Below are positions 771 through 32,256 of a stretch of 32,256 nt of DNA, one piece after another (the first letter of the stretch is position 1; each line of letters begins with the position of its first letter). Position numbers and translations under genes: made by a program. This DNA comes from a virus: positions 1 through 32,256 of the IMG/VR virus record IMGVR_UViG_3300050120_000202; one strand, written 5' to 3'. Below the pieces are notes generated by a model. It worked only from the letters and a program-made list of their open reading frames with translations, was not told where the DNA came from and made no database searches.

Positions 771-1054
771 GCTTTACCTTCCTTCGTGGTGGCAGCGTCC
801 CAAGTGGGATGGTAGGGCCGCTCGCTGATCTCGGGCCGGTTCAAACCTTCCTGTAGCAATCGCTCTATATCCTTCGGTTCAAGGTTTGCGCCTCCGATCT
901 TCAAAATCTCCTGAGCGAGCCATACATGATCGGGCGCGTAAGCCAGGACCACGGATTTATCCGAAACCACAGCGAGACGACCCGCGCGCAGCCGTTCGAT
1001 ATTACCCGGCTCAAGAATGATGATCTTCGCGCCATTGCTTTGGAGATAGATCAC
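767..1054 (-). CDS. Hypothetical protein, 95 aa
   Basis: This small protein (MIYLQSNGAKIIILEPGNIE...) shows alternating hydrophobic strands in its first 45 residues, with IIILEPGNIERLRAGRLAVV resembling a small beta domain. A helical segment (HVWLAQEILKIGG) and a charged tail follow. Its ATG at 1054 lies 4 bases inside the 3' end of the ATPase gene (ATPase stop at 1051), and its own stop overlaps the next start as ATGA. Three genes in a row are therefore coupled, which suggests a shared role with the ATPase. No family is recognised. Confidence 0.6.
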   Translation of the reverse strand: MIYLQSNGAKIIILEPGNIERLRAGRLAVVSDKSVVLAYAPDHVWLAQEILKIGGANLEPKDIERLLQEGLNRPEISERPYHPTWDAATTKEGKA

Positions 1055-2469
1055 TTCTCGACCTCCACATCCTCGCCCGTCGCCTCGCCGTCTTCCATGA
1101 TGACGCTAACCTTGCCGCCCGTCTCCACGCGCTCGATCCACACCTGGAAGTTGTGCCCCTTGGCTGCGTCCGCGACGAGCTGGAGGCTGGTGTCGTCCAA
1201 CAGGCTCCCATCGCTGATCCGCAGCACGCGCAGCTTGGGGTTGGCGGCCATGCCGATCGCCATGCTGACGCGGATCTGTTCGGCGTTCGATGCCTGGCTC
1301 AGCGGCAAGCCGCCATACACAACCTCACCGTTGGCGATGGAAAGCTTCTCGATGGGCATCTTGGCGCGCGCGATCGCCGCCTCGCGCTCCGTGTCGCGCT
1401 GCTTCATGCGCTGGTCGATCGCCGCCCACGCCTCGTCTGCCGCGTCCAGCTCCTTCTCCAGTTGGCGGTAGTAGGTGGCCGACTGGATGGCGCGGTTGGT
1501 CTCGTTCGCCCTGGTCAGCTCGGCGGCAACCTCGGCGGTGTCGATCTCCGTTCCGATCTCAAGTGCGGCATAGGCTTGCTGGGCTGCGTGGGCTGCCCCT
1601 TTCTTTTTGGGTTTTTCCGCCACGCTGTAAATCGTCTCGTGCCCGTCCAGCGCCTCGGCTGCCGCGATCATCTCCCTGATGGCCGTCCGCATCTTCGCGG
1701 CCTCGTCCAGAATGTCGTTATAGCTCTTGAGCGCATCAGCCTTCGCCTGTTTCTGCGCTGCAACCGCCGTGTTGTGCGTGGCCGCATTTTGCAGCTTGAG
1801 GGTTATCGCCGCCGTGTCGATCGCTTCCAGTGGCAAATCCGGGGCGGGAATGGCCATCGCAGACACGCGGTTCTTGAGCGAATCGACCAGCCGCCCAGCT
1901 TCGCGGCGCGCGTCATAGTCGGTCTTCTGGGTGGCGTCCAGCGCGTCAATGTCCACGTCGAACTCGACCAGTCCCCGCAGCTCCTCCAGTTGGTCGTCGT
2001 CATCCTTGCGCATGAAGGCCATCGGGTCAAAGCTGATCTTGCCTAGCAGCTTGTCGAGCAACACCTGGGGGCTGGGGAAGGCCTCGCCGCGCTTTCCAGT
2101 GACGACCAGCTTCGAGATGTAGGTGCGCCCGTCCGCACTCTTCTCCTCGTCGACGACGGTAAAGTGCCGCGTCACGATGAAGTCGCCGATGTCGATCTTG
2201 ATGCTGCCGCTGCGCTGGCCCTTGCGGATGGGATAGCGCGGCACCGACGAAACCCCCGTCAGCCCCCAGCTAATCGCGTCCAGCAGCGAGCTTTTACCCT
2301 CGCCGTTCTTGCCGGCGATGACGATGGTATTGCCCTTGGGCTTGACGTGCGCGAACTTAACCCGCTTGATGTTCTCGATGCGCATCTCGACGATGTGCAT
2401 GTTGTCGCTGCTGGACGCAACGATGGCGTCGACCTGCGCGTGCCGCTCTTCCTTGGGAATCCGTGCCAT
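1051..2469 (-). CDS. Rad50/SMC-like AAA (ABC-type) ATPase
   Basis: This is a phage-type ATP-binding protein of the RecF/Rad50/SMC group, 472 aa. Walker A is GKNGEGKS at residues 53-60, and 'MRIENIKRVKFAHVKPKGNT' just before it is the usual N-terminal strand of this group. A long charged, coiled-coil-prone middle (about 160-350) is followed by an ABC-signature-like segment ASNAEQIRVS (393-402). A Walker B/D-loop-like ISDGSLLDD (418-426) comes next. It is much shorter than host Rad50 or SMC, as usual for phage versions found next to recombination genes. The start at 2469 is set by an AAAGGAG site. A longer in-frame extension to 2661 crosses the promoter and is rejected. It probably acts in phage DNA replication or recombination; the partner nuclease is not visible and may lie left of the window. 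Confidence 0.85.
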   Translation of the reverse strand: MARIPKEERHAQVDAIVASSSDNMHIVEMRIENIKRVKFAHVKPKGNTIVIAGKNGEGKSSLLDAISWGLTGVSSVPRYPIRKGQRSGSIKIDIGDFIVTRHFTVVDEEKSADGRTYISKLVVTGKRGEAFPSPQVLLDKLLGKISFDPMAFMRKDDDDQLEELRGLVEFDVDIDALDATQKTDYDARREAGRLVDSLKNRVSAMAIPAPDLPLEAIDTAAITLKLQNAATHNTAVAAQKQAKADALKSYNDILDEAAKMRTAIREMIAAAEALDGHETIYSVAEKPKKKGAAHAAQQAYAALEIGTEIDTAEVAAELTRANETNRAIQSATYYRQLEKELDAADEAWAAIDQRMKQRDTEREAAIARAKMPIEKLSIANGEVVYGGLPLSQASNAEQIRVSMAIGMAANPKLRVLRISDGSLLDDTSLQLVADAAKGHNFQVWIERVETGGKVSVIMEDGEATGEDVEVEK

Positions 2470-2497
2470 GGTGCGTCTCCTTTGACATCTTTGTTTC

Positions 2498-2534
2498 GTA
2501 CCTAGACAATATAGGTATGGCATGGGGATGTCAA
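2498..2534 (-). promoter_or_regulatory. Leftward promoter with palindromic operator upstream of the ATPase operon
   Basis: Read on the minus strand, TTGACA (2534-2529) is followed after 17 bases by TATTGT (2511-2506), or after 15 bases by TATATT. The -10 region sits inside a perfect inverted repeat, TACCTA-N7-TAGGTA (2499-2517), a likely repressor site. The ATPase start lies about 35 bases downstream. The block CATACCTATAT also occurs in the promoter at 27949-27979, so one regulator may control both. Confidence 0.6.
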
Positions 2535-2560
2535 AGGAAAGCTGCATCCACGCTCGGTAT

Positions 2561-4885
2561 TTAGTGGCACGTCCATGCGCTGCCGTTGTAGATAGCGACC
2601 ATATAAGCGGAGCCGCTGCCCGTACACGCTGCGTTCGCAGCTCCAGCACCGTCAGAGACAACGTACTGAGTCCCTGCGATGATTCCTGTCGGGAGCGCCG
2701 CTACCGTGGACACCGGCATCCTCAAACCAGCGGTGGCAGTTGAAAAATCCATACCCATTGCGGATGGTGCCGTATAGTTTGGGTCAGCCAGCAGTTGCAT
2801 ATAAACTGCCGGCAACGTCCCGGTAGCAGGGGCAACCCTAAAGCATGCTCCGGTCCTACCGGGCGAAGATCCTCCCCATATGCCCGCTAATAAGCAAAAC
2901 GGCGCTGACGCGAAGTTGGCGCTAGACGTGGCTACCCCTGTTGGAATGACTTCGTTTGTCGAGGAGACGAATGCAGTTTTATAAATAGATGAAGTACTAG
3001 TGGCTCCTGCATCGAAGCCGCCCAGACCTGAGTTTCCGTTGAAGCCTTGTATCCCACCCAGGGCGCCCGGTGCTGCTCCGACTCGTCCAATCCCGTTTCC
3101 AGTGACTGAGATGGGACAAAGGAGAGATGCTGGCGTTGAACCCCACGCGGTTGAGGCGGAGCATAGAGAGGCTGCGTTATTACCGCCCGCCGATGGGCCG
3201 ACAAGAATCGCGCCATAGATGCTCGATGATGTTAGAAACTCAACATTAGAGTGTTGCCGAAACAGGAGAATTCCAGGGTTCCACGCTGTTGAAACGCCAT
3301 CGGTGTTGGTAGGATTTGGAGTCCAAAAAGTCGAGGGGTTGAGAGGCGTGACTACAGGGGCATAGATATTTGCCGCCCCATTTTGCAGGTTCGTAGGGGC
3401 ATACGTCAGAAGCGATGGAATGGACGCTCCGGTAATTACAGCCATCGCCGCATGGCCTGTGTTGTTCGGGTGCAGCGAGTCAGCATAGCAGTTCGTAAAC
3501 ATGACCGACACGCTGCCATTGCCGCACGATGCGGCGGCCACCATTCCGTCCCGAGTATTTGAATAAGTGATATTCAGGCCGTACCCCGAGAGTTGAGTTA
3601 CGATAGCTTGCTCAAATCCCGCATAGGTTCCGGAGAGGCTGTCATTGGCGTTGTTTTGATGATTCGGGCTGATAACGACTGCATTGGGATTGAGAGTCGA
3701 GGATGCCGGGATTGAACCGGCGAATCCGATTTCGACCGGGGCCGCCGTGGTGCTTGCCGCTGTGGTTGTGAAGACAACGGAGACGACGGTGTTGGGCGTA
3801 AATCCGGTAAAGACCTGGCCGGCGAATCCTGTTGTGGTGTTGTTCGCTGTGGTGATCGTTGAACTCCCATCACCGAAGGCATCGAACGTAGTCCCCAGGG
3901 AGCCGATGGCGTCTGTCTGGAGTGTCCCATTCACTTTGATGGTGAAGGTTCCTGTCCCGCCGTTGGAGATGCGATAGAGTACCGCAACATCCCCGCTGGC
4001 ATCTGTATTGACGGGGCAGGTTAGAACATCTCCACTCGCCGCCGTCGATTTTCCAAACCCGTTTCTGAAATTGTTATCGAGCGTGGCGAATCCGGTAGTA
4101 GATGTGCAGGTTTGCGCCCAAATCTGATTTGCTTTTGGGATCGAGGCCATAAGCAAATTGCCGGTAAGCACTCGCTTGAATACCGTTTGCAGATTGGCGT
4201 TGGTGTTGTAAGTCGTAACGTCGTTCGTACCGCACTCATTGATTGATGTCGGATAACTCCCGGCCGGAAATCCTGCGTTTCCAACGATAGACACGGAAGC
4301 ATCTAAACACTGGTCTCCCGAGTTGGAGTAGTTGATCTCAACGCCGCCGATCGGTGTTCTGAGCAGCTGAGCGAAGCCATGATTCAGGTCAGAGGCTCCG
4401 ATGCCAAATCCGATGGAGTCACCAAAAACGTCATAGCCTGGCGGGGTTGCCAGCGTCGCCATGATGTCGCGTGCCGTCCCCGCCCCCGATGCGGTCGAAG
4501 CGATCGAGACATCTCCTCCGGTGTTCGTAAGGGTAATGTTGGTTCCGGACTTGAGGTTGAGCAATGACTGGCTGCCGTTGTTCGCCCCGTTCGTCTGGAG
4601 CGTGGTGGCCGCGCCTGGGGGTCCTTGCGGTCCAGTTGGCCCAGGTCCTCCGGTTCGTATCTGCCATCCGTCCGCGCCGCAGGTGTAGTACGTGTTCGGC
4701 GTGATCGAGGTGTCCTGGTACGGCTGGAGGTAGTTGGTCGACGTACACGCGGAGGTCGGCGCTCCGTGTCCCGTCGCCAGCGGCCAGTTGATTCCTGTAT
4801 TCGGGTTCACCTTCTGTTGTCCCATCGCCGCGCCGCAGAGTGCCAGCGCCGCCATCATGATTCGTCCCTTAGAAGCAAAGCGCAT
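2561..4885 (-). CDS. SGNH/GDSL-hydrolase tail protein with collagen-like neck
   Basis: This is a 774-aa virion (tail-fibre or tailspike type) protein carrying an esterase-like domain. Residues 1-22 look like a signal peptide (basic RFASKGR, then MMAALALCGAAMG). A short collagen-like stretch, GPGPTGPQGPPGA, spans about 80-92. The SGNH blocks are FGDSIGFG with the GDS serine at 155-157, ECGTNDV with GTND at 219-222, and DSLHPN with the D469/H472 pair. About 100 residues rich in Thr, Gly and Val (290-390) lie between blocks III and V and read as an inserted beta-sandwich. The C-terminal 300 residues are Ser/Ala/Gly-rich, as in fibre distal parts. It probably deacylates host surface polysaccharide. 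The start at 4885 overlaps the upstream gene by 17 bases; ATG at 4858, with an AAGGGA site, is an alternative. Confidence 0.75.
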   Translation of the reverse strand: MRFASKGRIMMAALALCGAAMGQQKVNPNTGINWPLATGHGAPTSACTSTNYLQPYQDTSITPNTYYTCGADGWQIRTGGPGPTGPQGPPGAATTLQTNGANNGSQSLLNLKSGTNITLTNTGGDVSIASTASGAGTARDIMATLATPPGYDVFGDSIGFGIGASDLNHGFAQLLRTPIGGVEINYSNSGDQCLDASVSIVGNAGFPAGSYPTSINECGTNDVTTYNTNANLQTVFKRVLTGNLLMASIPKANQIWAQTCTSTTGFATLDNNFRNGFGKSTAASGDVLTCPVNTDASGDVAVLYRISNGGTGTFTIKVNGTLQTDAIGSLGTTFDAFGDGSSTITTANNTTTGFAGQVFTGFTPNTVVSVVFTTTAASTTAAPVEIGFAGSIPASSTLNPNAVVISPNHQNNANDSLSGTYAGFEQAIVTQLSGYGLNITYSNTRDGMVAAASCGNGSVSVMFTNCYADSLHPNNTGHAAMAVITGASIPSLLTYAPTNLQNGAANIYAPVVTPLNPSTFWTPNPTNTDGVSTAWNPGILLFRQHSNVEFLTSSSIYGAILVGPSAGGNNAASLCSASTAWGSTPASLLCPISVTGNGIGRVGAAPGALGGIQGFNGNSGLGGFDAGATSTSSIYKTAFVSSTNEVIPTGVATSSANFASAPFCLLAGIWGGSSPGRTGACFRVAPATGTLPAVYMQLLADPNYTAPSAMGMDFSTATAGLRMPVSTVAALPTGIIAGTQYVVSDGAGAANAACTGSGSAYMVAIYNGSAWTCH

Positions 4886-21637: not shown

Positions 21638-23911
21638 CTATGACCCCCCGAATCCATGTTGCAGTAGGTCCATATCGGTGTTGCGGCTCAACCGTGCCTC
21701 TGCCAGATCGAGCGGAACCGAGCCGCTGGTGTGGTCGGGTGCGGCGGGCTGCCCTTGCGAGAGGGGAACCTCGCCGCTGATGTGGTCGAGGGTCTTGTCG
21801 ACGATGGTGTGCTGAACGTCCAACGCTCCCTTGGTCTTGATCTGCTCCAGCTTGCCCTCCTGCTTCAACTTCTCCAGCAACTCCATAATCTGCGCCTTCA
21901 TCGCGTTCGGGTTCATCTGCTGGACCTGCTGTTTCTCCTGGTCGGACAGCGGAACAATGATGTCGTCGGCACCCTGTAGCTCACTCACGCGCAGAAAGAT
22001 TTTCTCGATCGCCAGAAAGTTAACCGTCCATCCCTTCTCGTGCATGTACTGCAAGAGCTGGGGCTGTTGGACGAGCTGCAACAGGAACGGAATAATCTGC
22101 GCGATGGCCTGCCGCGCTGCCAGCTTCTGGCCGGCCAGAATTTTAATGTTGAAAGTGGCGTTCAACAGGATTTGAGAATCGATGAGGTCGATGATCGCGT
22201 CCGAATACTTGTCGCTCAAGATGGCGCGAATCTCGGCGATGGGCATGATCTCCGTCACCATGTCCCAAAGGAAGCTGTACCAGCGCGTCATCACATATTC
22301 GAGATGCTGGACCGGCGTTGCGATGTTCTCGTCTGCCTTGCCGCCGATGCGGTTCACGCCCGCGGCGGTGCGCAGGGCGGTCGCGCCTGGTCCTCCCACG
22401 TTGCCCTGCATGGTGGTCGAGTTCGCGCCGACAATATCCTCGCCGCCCTCCTTGCCCAGCTCGTAGATCTTCCACGCATCGGCGGGGATCACCGGCATCT
22501 GCATAAAGCCGAATGCCTTGCGCACGTCATTATCGGGCGCTTCCACACCCCAGAAAGTTCCCATTCCTTGAACGACATTTTGCGTGGGTGCGTTGCCGCT
22601 GGCGCTGTTGTAGAGGATCGGCGCATTCATGGGGAAGGCGATCATCTTGAGCACTTCGTTTAAGACACCTTGATCCATACGCTGATCGCCGGCGTTGAGC
22701 CTTCCCTGGCCGATGCCATAACCGGAGTTCTCGATGTTCCACCATGTCGCGGAGTAGCCCAGGCCATGATCGCCGATCGGGGAGTCTTCCTTGCGGATGA
22801 TCTTCCTGCCGCCCGGATAAACCAGCATCTCGGCCACCGACTCGCACGTCCAGTAGCTCAACTTCATAATCGGTTTGCGCAGCGGGTTCTGGCTGGTGTT
22901 GGCGTGTTCGCCCTCGGCGTGAAGTACGTCGCTGGTCTGGGTATTCATCGACTGTGCGACCTGCGATCCGACTTGCGCATCTCCGTTGGGGTTCTGGAGA
23001 AAATAGGTCTCTAGCTGCTTGTCGTCGGGAATGTCTTTGTAACATTCCTTTTTGCGCATCTGCTGGAGATCTTGCATGGAGACATAATCGATGTCGATGC
23101 GGATTCCGGCGCTCAGGTCGGGGCGGTTCGGCGTTCTCCACTTGGGGTCATAGATCGTTGTTCCCAGGCGGCGATACTCGAAGCACGGCCAGCTTTCCTC
23201 AACCTCTTTCGAGACAGTTTTGTACTTATCGCTTTTGAGGGTGTGGATCTTCCTTTTAGTTCCATCCGGCATCGAGATTTCTTGCGGCGGCTCCACTGGC
23301 TTGCGCGTCTTTTTGACGACGGTCTTCTGCTCCCAGATCGGGATGGCGATAGCGGTTCCCTGCAACACCTGGCAGTCGATAAAAAGCTCCATGTTGTATT
23401 CAAGCTCTCCCCGTTTATCCAACACGCTGAAAATCTCGGTGATGGCGTCGACATAGATCTGCACATCGGGAAGGCCGGCAAACTTGCCGATCGGTTCTAT
23501 CAGGAAGGGGTTGGCATCGGCGAAGATTCCACGCCGTACCTGCGTGCTCATGGTGTTGCGGTTCTTGGCTACATTGAAGCGGCTGATGCGCGCGGGCCGG
23601 CTGCTCTGCGTTCTCCAGTCGCCGTCGTAGTTGGGACTCTGGTACAGGTAGTCCACGTATTGCCACTCGGCCAGCCAGGAGTTGTTGTCGAGCCACTGCA
23701 TGAAGCGCTGGAAGTCGTACCAGATGATGGTCGCCATCGCGTCGTCGTCGAAGACGGCGGGTTTCACGCCACCGTCCGATGTCTCAACCTGGTGCGCGCC
23801 GATCATCGGCGTCATCTCGTTGCCGAGCGGGAAGCCGTCGCCACCTACGCGCGCGGCGATGTCGTCGGTCTCGGTCTCTTCCAACTCGTCCAGCTCCAAC
23901 TCATCAGCCAT
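21638..23911 (-). CDS. Portal protein, podovirus type
   Basis: The 757-aa product fits the large portals of short-tailed phages by size and position, directly after the terminase and before scaffold and capsid. An acidic N-terminus (MADELELDELEETETDDIAA) precedes a conserved-looking helix-rich region with RFMQWLDNNSWLAEWQYVDYL and 'NYDGDWRTQSSRPARISRFN'. Long helices near the end include KQQVQQMNPNAMKAQIMELL, as in the barrel region. The start at 23911 has GGAGG 5 bases upstream and overlaps the terminase stop by 8 bases. It would form the dodecameric ring at one capsid vertex through which DNA passes. Confidence 0.75.
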   Translation of the reverse strand: MADELELDELEETETDDIAARVGGDGFPLGNEMTPMIGAHQVETSDGGVKPAVFDDDAMATIIWYDFQRFMQWLDNNSWLAEWQYVDYLYQSPNYDGDWRTQSSRPARISRFNVAKNRNTMSTQVRRGIFADANPFLIEPIGKFAGLPDVQIYVDAITEIFSVLDKRGELEYNMELFIDCQVLQGTAIAIPIWEQKTVVKKTRKPVEPPQEISMPDGTKRKIHTLKSDKYKTVSKEVEESWPCFEYRRLGTTIYDPKWRTPNRPDLSAGIRIDIDYVSMQDLQQMRKKECYKDIPDDKQLETYFLQNPNGDAQVGSQVAQSMNTQTSDVLHAEGEHANTSQNPLRKPIMKLSYWTCESVAEMLVYPGGRKIIRKEDSPIGDHGLGYSATWWNIENSGYGIGQGRLNAGDQRMDQGVLNEVLKMIAFPMNAPILYNSASGNAPTQNVVQGMGTFWGVEAPDNDVRKAFGFMQMPVIPADAWKIYELGKEGGEDIVGANSTTMQGNVGGPGATALRTAAGVNRIGGKADENIATPVQHLEYVMTRWYSFLWDMVTEIMPIAEIRAILSDKYSDAIIDLIDSQILLNATFNIKILAGQKLAARQAIAQIIPFLLQLVQQPQLLQYMHEKGWTVNFLAIEKIFLRVSELQGADDIIVPLSDQEKQQVQQMNPNAMKAQIMELLEKLKQEGKLEQIKTKGALDVQHTIVDKTLDHISGEVPLSQGQPAAPDHTSGSVPLDLAEARLSRNTDMDLLQHGFGGS

Positions 23912-25628
23912 CTAAACCTCCGGGCATGGGTGGCATACTCCAAGTCGTCGCTTTCTGCATCGCCTGAATGTGCGCCTTGGCTTTTTGTTCCATCTGTTGA
24001 TCGACCTGCGGCATCCCCTGTTGCTGCAAGAATGAATTTAGCATCGCGTCTTCGCGCCGCCGCGTCTGCCACTCCAGCTCGTCCTCTTCCATGTTGGCGC
24101 GGAGTTGCGAGATGGGAACCATGTCGGCGAGCTTCGATACGCACTCGATGATGCCGTTGTCTTCGACCAGACCGAAATGCACGAATTGCTTTTTGCACTC
24201 GGCTCCCTTGGTCATGTCGCGGGAGAAGAGAATGCGTCCCACCTTCAACATCGGCTCCATCAGCTTGATGCCGTTGTTGCGCAGGTTCTCGTTGTCTTCC
24301 CAATCGCTCCACTGGATCCGGATGCTGAGGTTCTTCTTCCCTGCCTCGTTGCGAACGTGCGGCACGAACCCATCGCAGCCCGGCGTATTCAAAAGCATCA
24401 GGCCATCGGCTGAAAGCTCTTTGTGGATCTGCACCATCCTCTCGGCCTGATGGCTGGGCGTGCCGCCGATTCTCCAGCAGTCGATGACGTAGACCTTGCC
24501 GGCGATGATGCGCGCCGCCGCGCCCTCCAGAAACTTGCTCGTCGACGGCTTGCTGCCATAGGGCAGACGCCAGCACACAAAGGTCTCGCCGCCGTACATG
24601 GGGATGCGCTCGGCATCGGCCTCGCATGAGGCGTACAGCTTCTCATCGAAGGTCGGGGTGTGGCCGCCCTGCGGATCGTTCTGCTGCTGGCACATGTACG
24701 TCTCATAATTCTCCTTGAACTTCGAGCGCAGGTCTTTGTAGGTCATGCCCGGCAGTTCGGAAAAATGAATCGTCAGCTCATCCTCTGGGGGGAACTCTCC
24801 AGGCAGAAAACGGGAGCCATCCTTGGGAGTAGCAGAATGCCGGATGAGCGTCTTCCACTCTCCGGGGTCCATGTCGTCGAGCCTCACGCCGTAGAGATCG
24901 AAGGGGTGATAGCGCGTTCCGACGAGATACAGGTATCCGCCCGGAACCAGTGTGTTTTTGTTGGTATCGAAGGTTTCGATAACGCCTTGACGCGCGTCCG
25001 CAGTGGCGCGAATGCCGCTGTTCTTCGTGGCCACCATGTCGTCGCAGTTCAGAATCCAAGGGTGCCATCCTGATTGTTCGGTCTGGGGTGAGGTAAAGGA
25101 GATGGTCTCGTCGAGCGCGCTCATGTCGTGGCTTTTGGTGCTCCATGTATCGCCAAAGCTGAACGGCGCTTTGTCGACGACCAGCTCGGGAAAGCAGAGC
25201 TGAAAGCGCGTCGGCTGCTGATACTTCGGGCAGTAGAAGAAGTTGGCGATGCCCTTGGAGATGGCCTTAGCCAACGGCTGCGTTGCGGTCTGGTTTAACA
25301 AAGTGATGATCTTCGGAAACGCAGTAATCCATTGCACCTTATCCACACGGTTCCATGTGGTCTTGTAGGTGAATCGCGGATCGAGATGCATCCGTTTTTT
25401 GATTGGGTCCTGGTCTTCGATCGCCCGGAGAGGATTCTTTCTGACGTAGAGATCGGCGACTGGCTGATGCAAGATCGGATGGAACTCCCACCCTAACATT
25501 CTTCCCGCGAAAAATGGATCGGTAATAAAGCGATGCCGCAAATCATCGCGATAAGCGGCATCCTTGACGATGCGTTCGTTGTCGTCTTCGAGGATCAAGG
25601 CTGCCCCGCTACTGGCCTGGAGCGCCAC
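23904..25628 (-). CDS. terL: Large terminase subunit
   Basis: This 574-aa protein has the order of motifs of a phage packaging ATPase-nuclease. A degenerate Walker A (PRFTYKTT, 84-91) is followed by a Walker B-type strand, WILNCDDMV (191-199). Coupling motif III, LVGTRYHPFDLYG (235-247), is next, then the start of the RNase H-like nuclease half with KVYVIDCWR (378-386). Nuclease catalytic acids are less clear: the usual first Asp (in a 'DPA'-like strand near 350) is not obvious. The apparent start is GTG at 25628 inside the end of the previous gene. The ribosome site is weak, so the true start could be slightly different. It pumps DNA through the portal encoded next. Confidence 0.85.
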   Translation of the reverse strand: MALQASSGAALILEDDNERIVKDAAYRDDLRHRFITDPFFAGRMLGWEFHPILHQPVADLYVRKNPLRAIEDQDPIKKRMHLDPRFTYKTTWNRVDKVQWITAFPKIITLLNQTATQPLAKAISKGIANFFYCPKYQQPTRFQLCFPELVVDKAPFSFGDTWSTKSHDMSALDETISFTSPQTEQSGWHPWILNCDDMVATKNSGIRATADARQGVIETFDTNKNTLVPGGYLYLVGTRYHPFDLYGVRLDDMDPGEWKTLIRHSATPKDGSRFLPGEFPPEDELTIHFSELPGMTYKDLRSKFKENYETYMCQQQNDPQGGHTPTFDEKLYASCEADAERIPMYGGETFVCWRLPYGSKPSTSKFLEGAAARIIAGKVYVIDCWRIGGTPSHQAERMVQIHKELSADGLMLLNTPGCDGFVPHVRNEAGKKNLSIRIQWSDWEDNENLRNNGIKLMEPMLKVGRILFSRDMTKGAECKKQFVHFGLVEDNGIIECVSKLADMVPISQLRANMEEDELEWQTRRREDAMLNSFLQQQGMPQVDQQMEQKAKAHIQAMQKATTWSMPPMPGGLDG

Positions 25629-27463: not shown

Positions 27464-27901
27464 TTAATTCTCCATTCTTTCAACGATGAAGTGGGTTCGG
27501 GGATCGTGCCGCTGGTCCTTGACGATGATGGCTTTGGACTCCAGAACAAAGGCGTCAGAGTGCAACACACCCGCATACGCAAGCGCGTCGATGGCTACCT
27601 TGAGGGAGTTGTCGCTGTCGAGCCGTTGCCCTTTCCCGAGATAGACCTGCACTTCGACGCGGTATTTGACGCGCCGGCGCTCGGCGTCGGTGACGGGCGC
27701 GACGGTACAACCGCGCGCGAAGATTGCGACTGCATCCTTATAGGCTTTGGCTTCCTTGGTTAGCTTTTTGCCGTGATGGGAGAACCCGTCCTTGCCGGTG
27801 TACATGCAGGGCTTGGTGTAGTGATTCGTGCTGGGCGGGGTAAGTCCAGGGACAGTGAAAGAGACGATCCGCTCAGGTTCCGGGTAAATCGATCGCGTCA
27901 T
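27464..27901 (-). CDS. rusA: RusA-like Holliday-junction resolvase
   Basis: This 145-aa protein fits the RusA family, which cuts Holliday junctions in recombination intermediates of phage DNA. The N-terminal FTVPGLTPPSTNHY (15-28) is the usual first strand. The catalytic core is present: DSDN with D95 and D97 (DxDN), K101, D105 (in 'KVAIDAL') and D116 (in 'LHSDAF'). A second usual Asp before D116 is replaced by Ser. The start MTRSIYPEP at 27901 has GGAG 8 bases upstream. GTG at 27955 and ATG at 27937 are less likely. It is the first gene of the leftward small-gene string and lies back-to-back with the rightward regulator promoter. Confidence 0.8.
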   Translation of the reverse strand: MTRSIYPEPERIVSFTVPGLTPPSTNHYTKPCMYTGKDGFSHHGKKLTKEAKAYKDAVAIFARGCTVAPVTDAERRRVKYRVEVQVYLGKGQRLDSDNSLKVAIDALAYAGVLHSDAFVLESKAIIVKDQRHDPRTHFIVERMEN

Positions 27902-27948
27902 CCGATTTGCTCCGGTGAAATAAGGGGGATTTCGCATATATGATGGAT

Positions 27949-27979
27949 TTGACACCTCGCAATTTCATACCTATATAAT
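27949..27979 (+). promoter_or_regulatory. Strong rightward promoter sharing an element with the ATPase promoter
   Basis: TTGACA (27949-27954) is followed by TATATA after 17 bases (27972-27977), or by TATAAT after 19 (27974-27979). The block CATACCTATAT around the -10 region also occurs in the promoter at 2498-2534, including its TACCTA half-site. Transcription would start near 27984-27986, at or just before an ATG, so leaderless translation is possible. The regulator gene at 28031 is the target. Confidence 0.6.
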
Positions 27980-28940: not shown

Positions 28941-29033
28941 TTGTCGGTGTTACGTGTGTAAGTTTTCTTTTGTCCGAAAACGTACACACTTATGCACTAC
29001 AAATGTATGACGCTGGCGGCTATCGTCTCCCTT

Positions 29034-29771
29034 ATGCCCATTATTCTCGCCATCGCAAACCAGAAAGGCGGCTGCGGAAAGACCACAACCGCAATGAACC
29101 TCGCGGGTGGTCTCGCGCGCGCCAAGTATTCCGTCCTGGTCGTCGACGCCGATCCGCAAGCCAGTTCGACCGTGTGGAGTCTCGCGCAAGGGCAGGGAAG
29201 CCTCCCGTTCGAGGTCAGGCCGGCGCGCCAATTCAAATGGCGCTTCTCGGCGCTGGAGGGTGCCGAGGAGGAGCTGGTACTGGTCGACTGTCCTCCTGGC
29301 ATCACCGAACAGGACGAGGCCGCCAAGTTCACGCGCGCGGTGCTGCATGGTGCCGATGGAATCCTGGTCCCGCTCAGGCCGTCGACTCTCGACTTCTCGG
29401 CGGCGGCTACCTTCGTGCGCTACCTGCGGCAAGAGAAAGCACCCGAAACCAAGGTGGCCGTGCTCGTCAACGCGCGCAAGAATACCGTTCTCGGTCGACA
29501 GGCGCAGGAGACGGCGGCGGTTATCTTTGCGCCGATCGACACGGCGCTCGTGCTCAAAACCACCATCGGAGACCGCGCACCCATCACGGAAGTCTCGGGT
29601 TCCGGCAAAACCATCTTCGACTATGCCCCCAGCCATGCAGCGGCCAAGGAGTACGTCGAGCTAACCAAGGAGATACTGCAATGGCTCACAAACGCGCCCA
29701 GCTCGCCGGCTACGCCCTCGAAGACCTACACACACACATTGACCCCATCCGAGACCGCAAATCGCCTGTAG
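29034..29771 (+). CDS. parA: ParA-family partition ATPase
   Basis: This is a 245-aa deviant-Walker ATPase of the plasmid partition type. KGGCGKTTT (11-19) is the Walker A with the signature Lys. VVDADPQ (36-42) is Walker A'. LVDCPPG (83-89) is Walker B. A short N-terminus without an added DNA-binding domain marks the small type. MPIILAIANQ is the usual start, although no ribosome site is seen; upstream Met codons at 28992 and 29007 are possible. It would dynamically move plasmid copies over the nucleoid. The partner gene overlaps its 3' end by 91 bases. It follows an operator-like repeat and is convergent with repA. Confidence 0.9.
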   Translation: MPIILAIANQKGGCGKTTTAMNLAGGLARAKYSVLVVDADPQASSTVWSLAQGQGSLPFEVRPARQFKWRFSALEGAEEELVLVDCPPGITEQDEAAKFTRAVLHGADGILVPLRPSTLDFSAAATFVRYLRQEKAPETKVAVLVNARKNTVLGRQAQETAAVIFAPIDTALVLKTTIGDRAPITEVSGSGKTIFDYAPSHAAAKEYVELTKEILQWLTNAPSSPATPSKTYTHTLTPSETANRL

Positions 29772-31549: not shown

Positions 31550-31768
31550 CGCTGAAACGGTCCCCCCCCCCTCAAGCGCATAAAAAGCGAACAGTTATCG
31601 ACCGCTGAAACGGTCCCCCCCCCTTCAACCATCTCCTTTATTGAAAGGGGTATTTACATCATTCCTTAATTTTTAATATTCGCTTTTTCATTGCCCTATA
31701 TTGAATTATTTGTATTTCTTATGACCGCTGAAACGGTCCCCCCCTCGACCGCTGAAACGGTCCCCCCC
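31550..31768 (+). repeat. Iterons of the RepA origin (four copies)
   Basis: Four copies of CGCTGAAACGGTC, each followed by a C-tract, start at 31550, 31603, 31726 and 31750. The C-runs are 10, 9, 7 and 7 long. Copies 2-4 read GACCGCTGAAACGGTC, an inner inverted repeat GACCG/CGGTC. A decayed fifth copy lies near 31391. Such short repeats beside repA are the usual RepA-binding sites. The long C-runs are unusual. Confidence 0.8.
31576..31689 (+). repeat. Duplication arm B of the origin region
   Basis: This block pairs with arm A (31362-31475). It is better kept at the iteron (GCTGAAACGGTCCCC) and much more AT-rich at its end, CCTTAATTTTTAATATTCGC. Arm B carries the functional-looking iteron 2. 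Confidence 0.7.
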
Positions 31769-31774
31769 AAATAC

Positions 31775-31813
31775 CATGTAGTTAAGGCATGTAGTTAAGT
31801 ACCATGTAGTAAG
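31775..31813 (+). repeat. Three short direct repeats beside the iterons
   Basis: CATGTAGTTAAG occurs at 31775 and 31788, and a shorter version, CATGTAGTAAG, at 31803 (starts 13 and 15 bases apart). They lie right after the last iteron and could be a second set of protein-binding sites or part of the origin. Confidence 0.6.
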
Positions 31814-31837: not shown

Positions 31838-32111
31838 TGTGCAAAACCCCTTCCCGATCCCCTCTGCACCCTCCAGGCGATTCGAGACCCTTTCCCCTGC
31901 GTTTCCCTCCGTACAACTCATCATCCCCTTGGAACATGGTTCCACAGCGTATATGTAAGCCTCCATAGAGTCTTGTTGCCGACCCTAACGGAGCTGCAAA
32001 AAGCGCTCTCAAGTGCCAGCGAGTGGGCGATCCAGGGGGAGAGAGGGTGCTGGTGGTAAAACGTTGTTCTACAACCACATACAAACAGCGAATAAAGAAC
32101 AACAACAAGCA
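31838..32111. other. Right-end intergenic stretch without a supported gene
   Basis: No convincing gene is seen. Short ORFs on the minus strand lack ribosome sites and cross the origin. It contains the inverted repeats GGAAC-ATG-GTTCC (31931-31943) and GTTGT-TCT-ACAAC (32063-32075), and becomes A-rich after about 32076. Confidence 0.5.
32063..32075. promoter_or_regulatory. Inverted repeat GTTGT-N3-ACAAC
   Basis: This perfect 5-bp inverted repeat with a 3-base spacer has the same half-sites and spacing as GTTGT-AAT-ACAA at 28918-28929 in the parA control region. It is a candidate partition or operator site; chance cannot be excluded. Confidence 0.4.
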
Positions 32112-32256
32112 ATCAAATAAAGAAATAGACAAAACAATGAAAAAAAGCTTAGCCTAAATACTGATTCACGAAACACTTCCTGCAAGCGACATTCTCAGAG
32201 CTTTCAGTATTTAGGCTAAGCTTTTTTTCATTGTTTTGTCTATTTCTTTATTTGAT
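32112..32256. repeat. Perfect 53-bp inverted repeat at the window end
   Basis: Bases 32112-32164 are the exact reverse complement of 32204-32256, with a 39-base non-matching centre. The right arm stops at the last base of the window, so the true arm may be longer. It is AT-rich, unlike the coding part. It could be a hairpin-type DNA end, a replication or resolution structure, or an assembly fold-back. Confidence 0.85.

Follow-up and report, generated by a model that had tools for sequence, protein, structure and literature searches.

The right end of the window, a 32,256-base IMG/VR virus record that was analyzed over its whole length and is reported without end repeats, is probably the natural terminus of a linear phage-plasmid, capped by a hairpin whose tip was rounded during assembly. 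A perfect 53-bp inverted repeat with a 39-base center that ends on the last base had been described here in the original prediction, and its coordinates were found to be exact, with 53/53 bases of the inner arm identical to the reverse complement of the outer arm, and the outer arm finishing at 32256, the final base of the record. The runner-up among the close inverted repeats of the window was only 14 nt, and the predicted DNA fold of the terminal repeat was −37.5 kcal/mol (z = −13.5). According to the hairpin reading, the contig would follow one strand to the tip, cross the 39-nt loop, and return for 53 nt on the other strand, where the assembly stops. Once past a hairpin tip, a contig can only proceed as the reverse complement of what it has already covered; thus, the "arms" would be the two strands of one duplex, with the outer arm representing the opposite strand of 32112-32164 after passage of the tip rather than separate genomic DNA. 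This relationship would account for (i) the perfect arms of the window, as both strands come from the same duplex; and (ii) the coincidence of arm ends with contig ends, the range of arm lengths (28-98 nt), and the absence of anything beyond, as arm length would reflect how far the assembler got. Reads folding back on the same strand, previously listed as a separate possibility, reduce to the same explanation. We infer covalent closure of the tip in vivo.

Gene content of the window and conservation of the inner arm

Judged by its genes, the window is a tailed phage-plasmid, as RepA, four iteron-like repeats, ParA, a RusA-type resolvase, the terminase large subunit (TerL), and a major head protein were found within it (Table 1). 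The record probably covers the greater part of a linear phage-plasmid genome, one end included; several kb are missing at its left compared with relatives, since the homologue of window 1051-2661 is located at 7.2-8.6 kb in G009. The repeat had also been placed next to an origin, and this held: the iteron-like repeats were positioned 0.4-0.7 kb inward of the terminus and, taken together with RepA, about 0.4-2 kb inward. The nearest plasmid RepA proteins were from Granulicella tundricola (about 40% identity), which is a hint and no more of an Acidobacteriota host. When the window was used as a DNA query, phages gave no match and plasmids matched only at ParA. The SbcC/Rad50-like ATPase was conserved (window 1051-2661, minus strand; L168:7202-8602; L171:1870-3420), with no partner nuclease noticed in an unsystematic inspection.

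Table 1. Positions of the terminal repeat, genes, and predicted sites in the window
Feature	Position	Strand	Remarks
SbcC/Rad50-like ATPase	1051..2661	-	Pfam AAA_23 E 2.1e-13; PHROG 1499 E 5.5e-89; PHROG 77 SbcC-like E 3.9e-10
Terminase large subunit (TerL)	23904..25628	-	Family-defining gene; PHROG 38 E 1.6e-12
RusA-type Holliday junction resolvase	27464..27955	-	DxDN..K motif; candidate terminal resolvase; PHROG 34 E 2.8e-11; Pfam PF05866 E 5.8e-5; E. coli RusA 1q8r E 0.0027
ParA partition ATPase	28992..29771	+	PHROG 164 E 1.9e-41; Pfam AAA_31
RepA plasmid initiator	30237..31247	- (inward from terminus)	Pfam PF04796 E 2.3e-20; 40% identity to Granulicella tundricola plasmid RepA
Iteron-like repeats (n = 4), GCTGAAACGGTCCCCCCC	31550..31775 (starts 31551, 31604, 31727, 31751)	+	Presumed RepA origin
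Palindromic operator-like site GGAACATGGTTCC	31931..31943	.	Similar sites near both ends of close relatives
Inner arm	32112..32164	+	Terminal genomic DNA at the right (RepA-side) end, in outward orientation; 53/53 match to outer arm
Outward promoter-like motif TAGACA-N18-TAGCCT	32126..32155	+	9 nt inside loop; weak in window (p 0.065)
Loop	32165..32203	+	39 nt; inferred apex of terminal hairpin
Outer arm	32204..32256	-	Perfect identity; ends exactly at contig end, like three relatives

An exact search of viral contigs with the arm returned 0 matches. Contigs 3300050821_007408 and 3300000904_000003 carry DNA homologous to the inner arm at the same end, and a portion of the arm, AATAGACAAA-N14/15-TTAG(C/G)CTA, was common to the window and relatives. 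Searching with the conserved stem pattern retrieved only three known relatives, with each match about 60 nt or less from the contig end. The relatives G002 and G004 could be aligned to the inner arm, and both stop within about 30 nt beyond it. A by-eye resemblance between the loops of the window and G017 (TTCCT..GCAAG) was dropped as a sign of loop conservation (p 0.17), and a claim on flip/flop loop orientation was likewise dropped, the loops of the relatives being too diverged for orientation to be read.

Fold-backs and gene-to-end distances in the family

Contigs related to the window were gathered by TerL, RepA, and clamp-loader searches. The resulting 28 family contigs, derived from many samples, were 37.3-43.0 kb in length, and none was reported as circular or as having terminal repeats; many of these records are probably near complete. 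TerL was positioned 1.9-7.0 kb from the same end in all 28 contigs, in six close relatives the RepA start was 0.62-0.89 kb from the TerL-side end, compared with 1.0 kb in the window, and the start of an AAA clamp-loader-like gene was within about 0.36 kb of the opposite end in nine relatives. Random breaks in a circle would not produce such fixed gene-to-end distances. The RepA domain (PF04796) was found in 11 of 25 family genomes. Neither TerL nor RepA relatives were found in 84,980 species genomes, plasmids had no TerL relatives, and TerL matches in phages were of only 21-26% identity. Long inverted repeats joining both ends were also not found, the longest shared match within 400 bp of the two contig ends being 8-16 nt, a value to be read with the caveat that contigs may stop short of the tips. 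With regard to the left terminus, a GGDEF diguanylate cyclase gene, an unusual phage cargo, was present nearby in relatives (L168:1598-2260, plus strand; L027:2677-3384; PF00990 E 2.3e-41), and the clamp-loader-like gene of G005 (L027:1050-1948, minus strand) was truncated or rearranged, with IS1595-type transposase-like ORFs close by, as judged by eye.

Terminal fold-backs were detected at the same genomic end as in the window in three relatives: (i) G017, with arms of 98 nt and a loop of 30 nt; (ii) L159, with arms of 28 nt and a loop of 15 nt; and (iii) L078, with 18 perfect nt, or 28 nt with one mismatch, and a loop of about 39 nt. Each time the outer arm started on the terminal base of the contig. 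Together with the conserved linear ends, these fold-backs support the hairpin telomere that was among the structures first proposed for this site. Among 92,000 anchors placed at random internal positions in these sequences, none gave a perfect arm of at least 18 nt. Read length was considered and rejected as the cause of arm length, as the spans of 145, 226, 95, and 71 shared no common limit. Counting against the hairpin reading, a convincing fold-back was present in only 4 of the 71 right-end contigs, and the arm lengths had no exact match to a common assembler k-mer.

Inverted chimeras are familiar as an artefact of sequencing, and a random chimeric fold-back produced during amplification or library preparation, with no relation to genome structure, could in principle give a repeat of this kind. 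Such an origin is highly improbable here, as the four strong cases were all at the same genomic end and came from separate samples, while none was detected at 21 fragment ends (0/21) or at the control ends (0/11), the latter consisting of 10 ends of unrelated contigs and the left end of the window. A random assembly artefact is unlikely for the same reason, namely that the fold-back recurs at one genomic end in independent assemblies.

The repeat might instead be a discrete genomic stem-loop that serves as an origin, resolution site, or terminator within a genome that is longer or circular, with the assembly having broken at this point. The nearby origin is compatible with this explanation, and de Bruijn assemblers may fail at inverted repeats that are long and perfect. 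We nonetheless consider it very unlikely. No contig among the 71 right ends continued past the structure, all of the 37-43 kb contigs had the same ends with none reported circular, and the stems of relatives, at 28 nt, are not long enough to interrupt an assembly but still finish on the last base, which is unexpected for an internal stem-loop and expected for a turn at a tip. The single-strand origin and internal resolution site of the original prediction are thus disfavored, as no family contig continues past the structure.

The main rival to a hairpin cap is a natural linear end that is open. Its 3′ tail would fold onto a short match by snap-back, whether in vivo or in the library, and extension by a polymerase would then create a perfect arm. 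This alternative, which we regard as unlikely, explains most of the data, including the perfect arms, as copying would give these, and the position at a natural end, which it accounts for equally well; at the tip of the window, only four base pairs (TCAG/CTGA) would be needed. It fits the mismatched stems less well. The mismatches in the L078 and G015 stems would not be made by copying, and the palindromes therefore look genomic, at least near the tip. The terminal palindrome of G015 (14 nt with one mismatch, loop of 2; baseline 0.0007) would not be yielded by a pure copying artefact, and G025, a relative of G015, stops exactly at the tip of this palindrome. In addition, open ends would be expected to give stops at one equivalent base, whereas the contigs of the close group halt at slightly differing points, all within about 260 bp of the tip. 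Scattered stops over this distance would follow if adapters could not be joined to the last fragment. At the opposite end, G022 had a weak fold-back with an 11-nt arm that overlaps operator-like repeats; it may be part of the operator repeat and is given little weight.

Candidate enzymes and known hairpin systems

The protelomerase search that had been proposed as a check gave no match in the window or its near-complete relatives: a ResT/TelK family enzyme (PF16684) was found in 0 of 28 family records at E <= 1, a threshold that a very divergent enzyme could escape. Tyrosine integrases/recombinases (PF00589) and protein-primed family B DNA polymerases (PF03175) were each found in 0 of 25 family genomes. 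To our knowledge, protelomerase-type enzymes are the only ones known to make hairpin caps in bacteria and phages, and none was found in the family. A virus-encoded Holliday junction resolvase was present in the form of the RusA-like protein of the window and of 18 of the 25 family genomes (not detected in the other 7). Replication from the RepA/iteron origin might copy round the tip to give head-to-head junctions, which would extrude as a cruciform or four-way junction; an enzyme specific for such structures, for which the RusA-type resolvase of the window is a possible candidate, could then cut the cruciform, and sealing by ligase would regenerate the hairpins, as modelled for rudiviruses and poxviruses. 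The assignment of RusA as terminal resolvase, drawn by analogy, is weak because many phages carry RusA for unrelated reasons. The RusA-type family also differs from Hjr and from the poxvirus resolvase.

The telomere phages N15, PY54, phiKO2, and NAR688 resemble the window in being tailed phages with RepA and partition genes and, as is probable for the window, in being kept as a linear plasmid with hairpin ends (PMC12042878, PMC10612081), and they are recognised by searching for the protelomerase gene (PMC12042878). The likeness extends to plasmid replication and partition, with RepA in 11/25 genomes and ParA in the window. Unlike these phages, the family of the window had no detected ResT/TelK-family enzyme or tyrosine recombinase. 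Its replication genes are beside the terminus and its putative apex is a loop of 15-39 nt, compared with the near-perfect palindrome at the telomere-phage apex. N15 TelN inhibits SbcCD and in this manner shields hairpins (PMC12624138); by analogy, the SbcC-like protein of the window might be a candidate for protecting hairpin ends, which is speculation.

Sulfolobus rudiviruses such as SIRV2 have a linear virus genome with hairpin ends, as proposed for the window, and a virus-encoded Holliday junction resolvase, and in vitro SIRV2 Hjr cuts hairpin four-way junctions into nicked hairpins that can be sealed by ligase (PMC3157427). SIRV2 is, however, an archaeal virus with another resolvase and replication protein, whereas the window is a tailed phage-plasmid with an iteron RepA. 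The flip-flop termini of poxviruses, ASFV, chloroviruses, and Kaumoebavirus have incompletely paired terminal hairpins like that proposed for the window, and in assemblies such termini were revealed by the hairpin joining both strands (PMC7909422, PMC8956199); for Kaumoebavirus, a similar contig-turn argument was made with reads (PMC7909422). These viruses are eukaryotic, and Kaumoebavirus has terminal inverted repeats of about 1 kb, whereas no long repeat linking the two ends was found in the family of the window. Borrelia, Agrobacterium, and "Ca. Phytoplasma mali" (PMC2459194) have covalently closed ends on linear bacterial replicons, a state that may hold for the window as well. Their telomere resolvase is proven or proposed and they have no virion genes, while in the family of the window no such resolvase was detected and virion genes are present.

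A broader proposal, which we put forward tentatively, is that the window belongs to a widespread lineage of tailed phage-plasmids that form covalently closed imperfect hairpins without protelomerase, by Holliday junction-type resolution, with outward promoters near each tip that start RNA at or near the loop. If true, a lineage with ends like those of telomere phages but no protelomerase would escape gene-based searches, and a way of completing chromosome ends that is known so far from archaeal and eukaryotic viruses would extend to bacteria. Moreover, real genome termini could be recognised in public viral data from contigs whose ends fold back, and the linear labels on all family records, despite many being probably near complete, would be explained.

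Promoter-like, operator-like, and G-rich sites near the ends

Outward sigma-70-like sites near the tips were detected at p <= 0.05 in 13 of 31 near-terminal ends, compared with 1 of 31 for the inward orientation. Versions stronger than that of the window were present at the ends of relatives (e.g., TTGACA-N16-TATAAT in G017), and the −10 box was within 10 nt of the contig end in several contigs. Based on these motifs, we hypothesize that RNA may be initiated at or near the loop from the outward sites. Operator-like palindromes were observed near both ends of one genome in G001-G003, G005, and G022 (ATGGATG--CATCCAT in G022); these sites seem to co-vary, which suggests that one regulator may act at both ends. 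Just inside the outward promoter-like site, a G-rich strand (e.g., GGGGTAGGGGAG) was found at the left ends of G009, G010, G011, G015, and G026 (L102, L105, L106, L114, and L137, respectively).
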